Source: Chloroflexota bacterium (GTDB taxonomy: Bacteria > Chloroflexota > Anaerolineae > Anaerolineales > E44-bin32). From it: a stretch of 38,661 nt of DNA. Both the position numbers and the translations under genes were made by a program. Location of the stretch: NCBI GenBank assembly GCA_027298025.1, contig JAPUGV010000097.1, forward strand, positions 1 to 38,661, written 5' to 3'. The stretch's first letter is position 1. The number at the start of each line of letters is the position of its first letter. This document shows, piece by piece, positions 5,869-28,046 of this stretch. The notes beneath the pieces were generated by a model. That model did not search any database. It saw nothing but the letters and a program-made list of their open reading frames with translations, and had not been told where the DNA came from.

Positions 5869-6606
5869 CTACCTCACCTCGGCCGGCTCGCTCACTACGA
5901 GCCTTAAGCCCTCAATTTCCTGTTTTGTCAACGGACGCCATGCTCCCGGCTCCAGATCGTCTAGACTAAGGTTGGCCATGCGAACCCGAATGAGACGCTC
6001 GACACTCAGGCCGAGCGTGCGGGCGGTCTCACGTATCTGACGTTTCATTCCCTGTCTTAGGATGACTCCCACCCATGCGTCAGGCGCCTCCTCCAACCAT
6101 ACTTTTGCCGGAGACGTTCGTATGTGGTCTGCAATCGTGACACCTTCCTTCCATGATTGCAACTGATCCTCGCTGGGGATCCGATCCAGAAGCACCCGGT
6201 ATTCCTTCTCATGAGCGTACGATGATTGCGTGAGTGCGTGCGTCAACTCACCATCGTTCGTCAGCAAGATGAGCCCCTCGCTCTCCAGGTCCAACCTGCC
6301 AACGGGATAGACGCGCGTCTCAATTTCTACAAGATCGATCACTGTCGGCCAACCGCCTTGCGAAGAGAGGGACGAGAGCACCCCCGCCGGCTTGTGAAGT
6401 AGCACGTAAACGAGCGGGTCCGGGTTGCGCATGGGCTTTCCATCCACCACGATTTCGTCCTTTGAAGGATCGGTGCGCATCCCTAACTTGGCGCGCTCGC
6501 CATTGACCCTCACCCTGCCCTCTCGAATCATGCGTTCGCATGTGCGGCGCGATCCATATCCCGCCTGCGCCATGGCCTTCTGGAGCTTGGGCGCCTCAGG
6601 ATCCAT
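5869..6606 (-). CDS. rluB: Pseudouridine synthase of the RluB/RsuA family
   Basis: This 245-aa enzyme isomerises a uridine in rRNA to pseudouridine. An N-terminal S4 RNA-binding domain (KLQKAMAQAGYGSRRTCERM, then GRVRVNG, residues ~7-65) precedes the synthase domain. The catalytic motif is YPVGRLDLESEGLILLTND, in which the Asp of GRLD is the nucleophile. The C-terminal KRQIRE motif is also present. The frame is open further upstream, but MDPEAPK at 6606 is the natural start because the S4 domain begins directly after it. This gives an 11-nt overlap with the scpB end. scpB-rluB adjacency is common in bacteria. Whether the target is 23S (RluB) or 16S (RsuA) rRNA is inferred from scpB linkage. 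Confidence 0.9.
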   Translation of the reverse strand: MDPEAPKLQKAMAQAGYGSRRTCERMIREGRVRVNGERAKLGMRTDPSKDEIVVDGKPMRNPDPLVYVLLHKPAGVLSSLSSQGGWPTVIDLVEIETRVYPVGRLDLESEGLILLTNDGELTHALTQSSYAHEKEYRVLLDRIPSEDQLQSWKEGVTIADHIRTSPAKVWLEEAPDAWVGVILRQGMKRQIRETARTLGLSVERLIRVRMANLSLDDLEPGAWRPLTKQEIEGLRLVVSEPAEVR

Positions 6607-7222
6607 CGGAAACCTGCTCGTCCGGCTCCCTTGACCGGTCCCTATTCCCCTCGGAGCCGCGGGTCTGCAACGATACCTTCGGATTCCCAATCTCGATCTC
6701 AGGCAGCTCCTCCAGTGAGCTCAAACCAAAATGCTGAAGAAATTCCCCGCTCGTCCCGTAGAGAATAGGGCGGCCTGGCCCGCTCGTCCGTCCGGTTTCT
6801 TCGACCAAACCATGCCGAAGCAGAGTCTTAAGTGAGGAGTCGGAGTTGACGCCCCGAATGGAATCGATCTCCGGCCGCGTTATGGGCTGTTGGTAGGTAA
6901 TGATGGCCAACACTTCCAGCGCCGCTCGGCTGAGATGTGCCTGGCTGTCCAGTTGGAGTAATCGTTCGATTTCGGGAGCGTACTCCGGGGCGCTGGTCAT
7001 TTGCGCGCCGCCTTTGTGATACTGGATACGCAAACCGCGCTCGACGTATTGAGCCTCGAGGTTCGATAGTGCGCTTTTAACCTCCGCAGGGCGGACACCC
7101 AGAGCCGTAGCAAGCTGGTCAATTGTCGCTGGCCCGGGTGAAGCGAACAGCAGCGCCTCCAGCTTCGCCTCTAGATTGCCCTGCGTGCTATAATCCCGCG
7201 CCATTTCTCCCGATGCATCCAT
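6596..7222 (-). CDS. scpB: Segregation and condensation protein B
   Basis: The 208-aa protein carries the two winged-helix domains of ScpB. The motifs are LEALLFASPGPATIDQLATAL (residues ~19-40), the family signature LEVLAIITYQQPITRPEID (~104-122) and IRGVNSDSSLKTLL, followed by GRPILYGTSGEFLQHFGL. With SMC and ScpA it forms the complex that compacts and segregates chromosomes. The C-terminal ~35 residues are charged and low in conservation. Two ATGs are possible: 7222 (used here) and 7204 (MARDYS, with GGGAG just upstream). The first would overlap the start of the divergent lipoprotein gene. scpA is not next to it, unlike in many bacteria, so the kleisin partner must be encoded outside the window. 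It is the first gene of the six-gene minus-strand operon. Confidence 0.92.
   Translation of the reverse strand: MDASGEMARDYSTQGNLEAKLEALLFASPGPATIDQLATALGVRPAEVKSALSNLEAQYVERGLRIQYHKGGAQMTSAPEYAPEIERLLQLDSQAHLSRAALEVLAIITYQQPITRPEIDSIRGVNSDSSLKTLLRHGLVEETGRTSGPGRPILYGTSGEFLQHFGLSSLEELPEIEIGNPKVSLQTRGSEGNRDRSREPDEQVSDGS
7186..7194 (+). promoter_or_regulatory. Extended -10 promoter for the 7213 lipoprotein operon
   Basis: TGCTATAAT at 7186-7194 is a perfect extended -10 element (TGn plus TATAAT). No good -35 box stands at the usual distance, as is often tolerated with an extended -10. Transcription should start near 7201, leaving about a dozen untranslated bases before the ATG at 7213 and no Shine-Dalgarno sequence. 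The element lies inside the 5' end of the opposite-strand gene scpB. Confidence 0.6.
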
Positions 7223-7782
7223 TTAAAGTTGGTTCAGGGCCATTTCTGCTCGCAGTCTCCCTGGTCGCAGCTGGCGTGGCCTGCCAGATCAACGTCGGCG
7301 GTCCCGAGCCACCGGCGGATATCATTGAGGCTTCCACAGCCAGCGCCTCGGAATTGGCAAACAACTGGGAATCCGCTCTGTCGCTGGGCACTGGTGAGGT
7401 CGTCTTGGTGATTACCGAGCAGCAATTGACATCCTTTTTGTCGGAGCGGTTTGAAAGTGATGAGGAGCCTATCCTAAGGCACCCGCAAGTGTTCTTGCGA
7501 AATGGGGAGATCAGGATCTATGGCACCGCCAGCGCAGGAGTCTTCGAGGCCGGCGCTCTGTTGACCATTCAACCGACGGTTGGTTCGGGTGGCGATGTCG
7601 AGTTCGAGATCACAACGGCTGAATTTGGACCAGTTCCCGCACCTAATCCCCTTACCGCGGTTCTGTCGGAGTTACTCACCGAGGCCTTTACTGGCACACT
7701 CGGCTCCATGGCCACCGGGATCCGAATCACCTCGCTTGCCATTGCCGACGGCCAGGTGGCGATCGTCGGCAGCCCGAGGTAG
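7213..7782 (+). CDS. Putative lipoprotein of unknown function
   Basis: This is a 189-aa protein of no family I recognise with certainty. It begins with a short hydrophobic signal sequence (FLLAVSLVAAGVAC) ending in a lipobox-like GVAC, so Cys23 is the probable lipidated residue, placing it on the outer face of the membrane. The rest is a soluble domain rich in beta strands (VVLVITEQQLTSFL, PQVFLRNGEIRIYGT, VEFEITTAEFGPVPAPNP). This pattern recalls small lipid-binding DUF2993/YpmS-like domains; that is a guess from the alternating strand pattern. The ATG at 7213 is chosen because the signal peptide starts there; the frame is open upstream but gives an implausible N-terminus. It ends in TAG 6 nt before the next gene, which is also a lipoprotein. 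Confidence 0.75.
   Translation: MHPFKVGSGPFLLAVSLVAAGVACQINVGGPEPPADIIEASTASASELANNWESALSLGTGEVVLVITEQQLTSFLSERFESDEEPILRHPQVFLRNGEIRIYGTASAGVFEAGALLTIQPTVGSGGDVEFEITTAEFGPVPAPNPLTAVLSELLTEAFTGTLGSMATGIRITSLAIADGQVAIVGSPR
7776..7780 (+). promoter_or_regulatory. Ribosome binding site supporting an ATT start codon
   Basis: GAGGT at 7776-7780 lies 8 nt before ATT at 7789 and overlaps the first base of the upstream TAG stop. No ATG, GTG or TTG exists in the frame between that stop and 7867, where translation would begin after the signal peptide. The spacing therefore favours ATT as the initiator. Confidence 0.5.
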
Positions 7783-7788
7783 CGAGCC

Positions 7789-9411
7789 ATTATACCCACG
7801 CGCAATTTCAACCGCTATCGGACCACCCGGGCGAGGGTCACGGCGAGCATCTTCCTCACCGTCGCATTGGCCGCGTGCGTCAGTCCGCAGGCCACTGCCG
7901 CAACAATCGATGTTGAAATCGTGGTCGACGGGGAGCCTATTGCGGTTCCCGTTCCGGTCGGTTCCACCGTTCAATTCGCGTTAGATCAAGGTAGCGTGAC
8001 ACTTGGCGAACTCGATCGTGTGGATCCGCCCGTTTATACAGTCGTTACCGACGGCACAGAGATTGTGGTCGTTCGACGGGTGGAGCACTTCGAAATTGAG
8101 GAGCTTGTGCTCCCTTTCTCCCGACAGACGGTCCGCAATGAAGGGCTGCCCGAGGGTCAAACTCGCCTGATTCAGGCCGGGTCGAACGGGATGGAGGAAA
8201 TCACCTATCGCATTGTCGAGGAAGGTGGCGACGAGATGTCCCGGCAGCCGGTGAAACGCACGGTGGTGATCGAGCCACTGCCTGAGATCATCATGATCGG
8301 CGCTCAAGCGGCGCATACACCGCTGAACATCAGGGGCACGTTGGCTTATATTTCGGGCGGCAACGCCTGGGTGATCGAGGGGAACTCCGCCAACCGGCGC
8401 CCGGTTGTTGTATCCGGCGATCTCGACGGGCAAGTCTTTCGTCTCTCCCCGGATAGCAAGTGGCTACTTTACACGCGCGGTCTGGATGAAGAGAGTGACG
8501 ATTTCAATTCACTTTGGGTGGTTGATATCGAAAATGAAGATGCCAGCCCTCTAGATATCGGCGCCCGGAACATCGTGCATTTCGCAGATTGGGCACCGAA
8601 ATCAGACTCGCCCGTGCTTGCGTATTCGAGCGCCGAGCCCCGTCAGGCGCCTCCTGGCTGGCAGGCCAATAACGATCTGATCCTGGTCAATCTGAGCTCC
8701 GGAGGCCGCGTGCTTCGGGAACGCGAACTGCTCCCGCCGAACTCTGGAGGCCAATACGGTTGGTGGGGCACTTCGTTTGCATGGGCTCCAGATGGCGTGC
8801 ACATAGCATATGCGCGAGCGGACAGCGTGGGTCTTATTGATTCGCGAGAGCCGGCCTTCGAGCCGCTGCATGAAATTATTCCGCTGCAAACCGGCAGCGA
8901 CTGGGCCTGGGTGCCCGGAGTCGCCTGGGGCCCAAACAGTCGCACGTTGTATCTGGTCGACCACGCTCCGCCGCTGGGAATCAATGATCCGGCGGCTTCG
9001 CCGGCCTTCGATCTAGTCGCGATCAGCGGTCCGGGGGAACCCCCGCTTCCACTCGTGACTCGAACCGGTATGTTTGCCTACCCTTCCTCCTCTCCGGTCG
9101 AGCTAATGGATTCCGGTGAGATCGCCTCTCAAGTGGCCTTCCTGCAGGCCCTCTCTCCCCTTCAGAGCGAAGACAGCAGCTACCGTCTGATGGTTATGGA
9201 TCGTGATGGGAGCAATGTGCGCGCCTTGTTCCCGGAAGCCGGTAAACGCGGGATCGCCCAGAATGAACTCTCACCGCCCTCCTGGTCGCCGGATGCCGAT
9301 CGCCTGGCGCTGATCTATCGAGGGGATGTCTGGATCGTGGACTCCTCGACAGGCGCGGGCCAGCAGCTGACCGGAGACGGGCTCACGATCGCGCTGGACT
9401 GGAAGCCTTGA
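7789..9411 (+). CDS. Lipoprotein with DUF348/G5-like domains and a C-terminal PD40-type propeller; probable ATT start
   Basis: From ATT at 7789 the product is 540 aa. It has an Arg-rich N-region, a hydrophobic core (ASIFLTVALAAC) and a textbook LAAC lipobox, so it is a secreted lipoprotein. Next come a DUF348-like ubiquitin-fold segment (TIDVEIVVDGEPIAVPVPVG) and a G5-like segment (ITYRIVEEGGDE to VVIEPLPEIIMIGAQ), both typical of cell-wall-associated proteins. The remaining ~370 residues show WD40-like/TolB-type blades (FRLSPDSKWLLYTRG, FAWAPDGVHIAYAR, PSWSPDADRLALIYRGDVWIVD). A conventional start would be TTG at 7867, but that leaves MAACVSPQ and destroys the signal peptide. Alternatives are a base error at the start codon or readthrough of the upstream TAG, since both genes share a frame. 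A wall- or glycan-binding role is inferred from the G5 region. Confidence 0.75.
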   Translation: MIPTRNFNRYRTTRARVTASIFLTVALAACVSPQATAATIDVEIVVDGEPIAVPVPVGSTVQFALDQGSVTLGELDRVDPPVYTVVTDGTEIVVVRRVEHFEIEELVLPFSRQTVRNEGLPEGQTRLIQAGSNGMEEITYRIVEEGGDEMSRQPVKRTVVIEPLPEIIMIGAQAAHTPLNIRGTLAYISGGNAWVIEGNSANRRPVVVSGDLDGQVFRLSPDSKWLLYTRGLDEESDDFNSLWVVDIENEDASPLDIGARNIVHFADWAPKSDSPVLAYSSAEPRQAPPGWQANNDLILVNLSSGGRVLRERELLPPNSGGQYGWWGTSFAWAPDGVHIAYARADSVGLIDSREPAFEPLHEIIPLQTGSDWAWVPGVAWGPNSRTLYLVDHAPPLGINDPAASPAFDLVAISGPGEPPLPLVTRTGMFAYPSSSPVELMDSGEIASQVAFLQALSPLQSEDSSYRLMVMDRDGSNVRALFPEAGKRGIAQNELSPPSWSPDADRLALIYRGDVWIVDSSTGAGQQLTGDGLTIALDWKP

Positions 9412-15443: not shown

Positions 15444-15471
15444 TTGCGCCGAAAAGTGGGCATGCTATAAT
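15444..15471 (+). promoter_or_regulatory. Promoter of the kinase-phosphatase operon
   Basis: TTGCGC (15444-15449), a 16-nt spacer and TATAAT (15466-15471) with an upstream TG (extended -10, TGCTATAAT). The leader is about 38 nt and contains AAGGAG at 15501-15506, 10 nt before the ATG at 15517. Confidence 0.7.
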
Positions 15472-15516
15472 CTCGCCGGATTGCTCCTTTCGGCCTTTAG
15501 AAGGAGCCTTCTTCAT

Positions 15517-24137: not shown

Positions 24138-24170
24138 GTACGGTATAATCGGCTCTGCGCTGGACCGTAC
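24138..24170 (+). promoter_or_regulatory. ftsH promoter region with a flanking inverted repeat
   Basis: A perfect TATAAT (24144-24149) is bracketed by GTACGG (24138-24143) and CCGTAC (24165-24170), an inverted repeat spaced by 21 nt. The right arm is itself part of the palindrome CCGTACGG (24165-24172). The arms flank the -10 and the expected start site, a sensible operator position. The -35 region is weak. The leader ends in AGGAGG, 5 nt before the GTG start of ftsH. Confidence 0.45.
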
Positions 24171-28037: not shown

Positions 28038-28046
28038 TGATATAAT
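28038..28046 (+). promoter_or_regulatory. Extended -10 promoter for the aminotransferase operon
   Basis: TGATATAAT (28038-28046) is a perfect extended -10. The predicted leader is about 62 nt and ends with GGAGG (28102-28106), 9 nt before the GTG at 28116. No good -35 is visible. Confidence 0.6.

Follow-up and report, generated by a model that had tools for sequence, protein, structure and literature searches.

A conserved lipoprotein gene with no ATG, GTG or TTG from which its signal peptide could be translated was found in a 38,661-nucleotide stretch of a Chloroflexota genome (contig JAPUGV010000097.1, here called the window). Its best candidate start codon, an ATT at 7789, coincides with a conserved DNA element that reads as a −10-like sequence on the opposite strand and, by its position, is probably part of the promoter of scpB, a gene transcribed divergently. 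We give roughly even chances to the full explanation, in which the canonical start was lost and translation would begin at an AUU inside the scpB promoter.

The lipoprotein gene and its absent canonical start

The source assembly is a draft of 283 contigs with a completeness of 90.2%, and the loci of relatives, titled Chloroflexota, Anaerolineales or Anaerolineae, come mostly from MAGs and from a few isolates. If read from ATT 7789, the plus-strand gene (7789–9411) encodes a 540-residue protein with a G5 domain (Pfam G5, E = 1e-14) and beta-propeller matches (DPPIV_N, 9e-8), beginning with a lipoprotein signal peptide (7789–7878) that ends in the lipobox LAAC, with the Cys codon at 7876–7878. 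Because 59 of 61 genomes (its own included) yield a match at E ≤ 1e-3, a few of them partial, and dN/dS is 0.084 against genome G001 of the same genus (dN 0.086, dS 1.03, 510 codons), this open reading frame (ORF) is a real, conserved gene under purifying selection and not a decayed one.

Upstream lies an LmeA-like lipoprotein gene (7213–7782, plus strand), for which the Pfam match falls below the cut-off (23.1 versus 27.3 bits). Its stop codon, TAG 7780–7782, ends 6 nt before the ATT, and the two adjacent ORFs share one plus-strand frame that spans 7213 to 9411. The divergent gene at 6596–7222 on the minus strand is taken to be scpB from protein likeness. Its longest ORF overlaps the start of the lmeA-like gene, so that the two 5′ ends would overlap in the region of 7204–7222 if scpB started at 7222. 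What we take to be an rsuA-like gene also lies to the left of the lipoprotein pair, opposite to it in direction like scpB, and a gene presumably encoding a sugar-nucleotide enzyme follows the G5 lipoprotein gene on the right.

A scan of all three plus-strand frames found no ATG, GTG or TTG in 7783–7866, in agreement with the first-pass annotation, which had reported none between the in-frame TAG 7780 and the signal-peptide core before TTG 7867. The same scan rules out rescue of the start by a frameshift. TTG 7867, three codons before the lipobox Cys, is the sole such codon in 7783–7869 in any plus frame. In this draft genome, a single base separates several of the codons at 7819–7848 from a canonical start. 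Of 212 loci compared, 201 gave a tblastn match, yielding 175 unique orthologue start regions; five of these (the window, three Leptolinea and L043) lack a canonical start 14–50 codons before the Cys, and all 11 loci missed by tblastn have one near the start of the match. Several apparent start-less cases were rejected: L043 carries an ATG 52 codons before the Cys, and both L023 and L024 have a TTG upstream. Locus L009 (G005) has an ATT where members of its family carry ATG, yet it also holds an in-frame ATG 15 codons before that ATT.

A conserved minus-strand element at the lipoprotein start

Read on the minus strand, the sequence ATTATACC at 7789–7796 becomes GGTATAAT, an extended −10-like element, ATTATA being the reverse complement of the −10 hexamer TATAAT. 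It occurs upstream of the lipobox in 131 of the 175 start regions and is met with in every frame (60/47/24). In 200 mononucleotide shuffles of these regions, the mean was 0.5 and the maximum 4; the same motif on the plus strand was found in none of the 175. Among 74 named loci, 73 were scored against control windows, and the element was near the start in 53 of the 73 versus none in each of nine control windows inside the gene. Where the ATT of ATTATACC is in frame (47 regions), a canonical start follows in 46, the window being the sole exception. Since the element recurs in all three frames and a canonical start nearly always follows the in-frame ATT, comparison of these regions indicates that ATT 7789 is conserved as DNA and not as a start codon.

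The first-pass annotation had suggested inspecting this codon in close relatives. G001 does carry ATT there, not ATG or GTG, and neither observation that the annotation had named as refuting its proposal was made. The codon lies within a 30-nt block (7789–7818) identical in G001, even though the remainder of the gene has a dS of about 1.0, and an ATG follows downstream in G001, so that conservation is no proof of a start. The block itself is under constraint at the level of DNA. Recurrent N-terminal peptides of orthologues (MRLYH/MRLYQ and IIPDM in L022, L029, L038, L083, L086 and others) arise where the minus-strand element is translated in frame; a protein-level cause of MRLYH, LYQ and IIPDM was rejected, the same DNA being read in three frames among the 131 regions.

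Assignment of the element to scpB is probable and rests on its position, which was scored in 66 of the named loci (8 were left out). Where no lmeA hit intervenes and the gap is under 250 nt, the element is present in 13 of 15 loci, at 21–102 nt from the extrapolated scpB start. With an lmeA-like gene in between, it occurs in 39 of 43 loci at 226–952 nt from scpB (median 627 nt); the distance to the scpB ORF start is 567 nt in the window, and an ordinary promoter distance is seen only in loci without lmeA. Two of the 43 lmeA loci hold a further ATTATA at no more than about 150 nt from scpB. The four remaining lmeA loci show no copy of the element at 150 nt or less from the Cys; one is present further upstream in L043 and L072 but in neither L051 nor L060. 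Loci with a wide gap and no lmeA hit carry the element in one of eight cases. Among these, L087 and L088 (Leptolinea) are without the distal element and carry ATTATA 26–27 nt from scpB; L049, L081 and L085 have a 7-of-8 match at 15–26 nt from scpB; L082 has neither near scpB; and in L104 the sole 7-of-8 match is close to the lipoprotein gene. Taken as a family, the loci have an extended −10 (TGnTATAAT or close) in one orientation and at promoter distance from a gene. A sigma-70 pair scan over 7100–7950 returned nothing, and no −35 conserved across the order was found; TTGCTG, as judged by eye, lies about 17 nt from the element, but only in part of the family to which the window belongs.

The window copy of the extended −10 is GGGTATAAT, matching TGNTATAAT at 7 of 8 positions. 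Three exact copies of TGNTATAAT in the window lie 9–18 nt before same-strand starts (ATG 7213 and the ORFs at 15481 and 28065). The plus-strand sites at 15463–15471, 28038–28046 and 24142–24149, exact copies of TGNTATAAT or GGTATAAT, each stand shortly before a plus-strand ORF. Such placement suggests that promoters in this genome may usually take this form; the count of two GGTATAAT in the window is not exceptional, as 4 of 100 shuffles hold as many.

A second extended −10, TGCTATAAT at 7186–7194 on the plus strand, lies near the 5′ end of scpB and faces the lmeA-like and lipoprotein genes. It recurs near the scpB 5′ end in 41 of 43 loci with lmeA and in 12 of 15 without. Opposing −10-like elements (7186–7194, plus; 7789–7796, minus) accordingly flank the lmeA-like gene, an arrangement that is recurrent across the order. 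In an excludon, as defined in PMC4179725, the transcript from one promoter is antisense to one gene and sense for its divergent neighbor. The likeness to the Listeria case is that a transcript from the putative scpB promoter would be antisense to the lmeA-like gene and sense for scpB; the difference is that the arrangement here is deduced from promoter-like positions. The opposing elements around the lmeA-like gene, present in many Anaerolineales, are best regarded as an unproven, testable candidate excludon with scpB.

ATT 7789 as a candidate start and its alternatives

The ATT at 7789–7791 is a near-cognate codon that combines the best-placed Shine-Dalgarno (SD) sequence with the lack of a canonical start. 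As the first-pass annotation had observed, GAGGT (7776–7780) ends 8 nt before it; this candidate SD lies across the 3′-terminal codons and the stop codon of the lmeA-like gene and doubles as its coding sequence. The duplex energy is −7.2 kcal/mol, computed with the textbook consensus anti-SD, which may differ from this genome's own. Energies this good or better were obtained at 3.7% of 3000 random window positions. Among 170 orthologue starts the median is −3.0 and two are stronger than −7.2, each value being the best of the candidate starts. The ATT lies 29 codons before the Cys; among 153 ATG-bearing orthologue regions, an ATG stands 20–26 codons before the Cys in 97 and 29 or more codons before it in 42.

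Of the features expected of a gene with a near-cognate start, the window displays both the lack of any ATG, GTG or TTG for the conserved N-terminus and a properly spaced SD. A near-cognate codon as the only start was not found in the close relatives: G001 has GAGGT and ATT plus an ATG 23 codons before the Cys, and G002 has a different sequence context at the start, with an ATG. Because G001 retains both GAGGT and ATT yet also has an ATG further on, the pair may exist for other reasons. The proposal that ATT 7789 is the start, made in the first-pass annotation, survives as the best single candidate in the window species, with the qualification that the ATT belongs to a widely conserved ATTATA. 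We regard initiation there, possibly coupled to lmeA, as an evenly balanced proposition.

In the proposed explanation, the 5′ end of the lipoprotein gene would overlap the promoter of divergent scpB, with ATTATACC at 7789 (GGTATAAT on the minus strand) serving as its −10; the conservation of this element is observed, and its promoter activity we infer. Selection on the DNA would keep ATTATACC in place. Most orthologues have their own canonical start near the element, and in the window species that start would have been lost. Translation would then proceed from the element's first codon, AUU 7789, which lies 6 nt past the lmeA-like stop and 8 nt past GAGGU. The route may be direct initiation or re-initiation by ribosomes leaving the upstream gene, the latter being plausible because the start would lie so close behind the lmeA-like stop. 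Judging from known AUU starts, lipoprotein output is expected to be low and sensitive to IF3.

Among the alternatives, it is unlikely that another near-cognate codon (ATA 7792, ACG 7798 or a later one) is the start and the ATT merely promoter sequence. ATA 7792 shares the same GAGGT, although at a longer spacing of 11 nt, and the 46 in-frame regions with a following canonical start illustrate that the ATT need not be the start in relatives; ACG 7798 and GCG 7831 have weak SDs (−2.3 and −3.2). We attach a similarly low likelihood to an assembly error at one base hiding a canonical start in the living strain. The draft state of the assembly speaks for such an error, as does the rarity of AUG-to-AUU switches, given as 1 of 61,358 ancestral AUG starts in PMC5622118. 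Against it, 7786–7818 is identical in the G001 assembly, and the window counterpart of the G001 ATG region departs from it by several bases and by its length, more than a single base.

A quite improbable alternative holds that ATTATACC is conserved at the lipoprotein start as a DNA or RNA signal of another kind than a promoter. The lack of an order-wide −35 would fit such a signal. An exact −10 hexamer in one orientation at 21–102 nt from scpB where lmeA does not intervene argues for a promoter, as do the proximal hexamers or 7-of-8 matches near scpB in several loci without the element and the three exact TGNTATAAT shortly before same-strand starts in the window. Far less credible still is readthrough of TAG 7780 into a 730-residue two-lipoprotein fusion, which the first-pass annotation had raised on the grounds that the ORFs share a frame. 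They are indeed adjacent and in frame, in G001 likewise, but over 44 loci the frame relation of the two genes varies (10/23/11), as does the lmeA stop codon (TAG 32, TAA 11, TGA 1), and the downstream ORF carries a lipobox-like Cys of its own, by pattern match, in 66 of 74 named loci.

Known and candidate near-cognate starts in Leptolinea, infC and other genes

AUU and AUC starts outside infC are seldom documented. One such case is Escherichia coli pcnB, which reportedly begins with AUU. AUU and AUA starts outside infC are already known, and the lipoprotein gene adds a candidate. In Staphylococcus aureus, according to PMC13009471, cvfC1 (AUU) and ccpN (AUA) start in this way with extended or good SDs and low output. 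The candidate ATT resembles them in joining a near-cognate codon to a good SD outside infC; the S. aureus starts differ in having been located by ribosome profiling and in being conserved in that role, whereas the ATT in the window was deduced from sequence. Weaker start codons tend to go with stronger SDs, as stated in PMC5622118, and the strong SD before the ATT fits both this tendency and the S. aureus examples. A gene caller restricted to ATG, GTG and TTG would place the start of such a gene wrongly and cut off its signal peptide. A further caution from this case is that a conserved near-cognate codon can be kept for an unrelated DNA element. If the proposed explanation is true, one hexamer would act as a promoter on one strand and as a start codon on the other.

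A second lineage without a canonical start is Leptolinea, represented by the isolate Leptolinea tardivitalis (L087/L128), the complete genome of Leptolinea sp. HRD-7 (L088/L127) and G335 (L129), which is assigned to the same genus. The canonical start of the lipoprotein gene is absent in all three genomes, and ATC stands at the same place in each, followed by ATT or ATC, AAA or GAG, and CGC or CGT. An SD-like GGGGA or GGGAC lies upstream, with energies for the three ATC codons of −4.0 (modest), −6.5 and −5.5. No promoter-like element was found at the lipoprotein start in Leptolinea, so it cannot explain the ATC there; as judged from these loci, the loss of the canonical start appears independent of that in the window species. 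A literature search joining Leptolinea and start codon returned no paper. A broader synthesis is conceivable, although we consider it rather doubtful as a whole: that a canonical start was exchanged twice independently for one under the control of IF3 (AUU for the window species, AUC for Leptolinea), that the window AUU is the −10 box of the scpB promoter, and that an order-wide excludon ties ScpB chromosome segregation to envelope lipoproteins.

The remark in the first-pass annotation that ATT initiation is established mainly for infC was apt here as well: ATC occupies the conserved start position of infC itself, which encodes IF3, in G000, G001 and G002 as well as in all three Leptolinea. 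The first three genomes have a GTG three codons ahead of the ATC, inside the likely SD, and this GTG is formally still possible as the start; no canonical codon precedes the ATC in the three Leptolinea. Like infC, known for AUU, AUC and AUA starts, the lipoprotein gene has a near-cognate codon at its start position. The two differ in that the ATT of the lipoprotein gene appears to be kept for the promoter-like element, most orthologues using ATG, GTG or TTG, whereas the near-cognate codon recurs across infC loci. We know of no autoregulatory logic for this lipoprotein gene. Of the 36 infC loci (L235–L270), 31 were parsed and 5 were not; the start position is near-cognate in 27 of the 31, as ATC (17), ATA (8) or ATT (2), which makes near-cognate starts plausible in these organisms.
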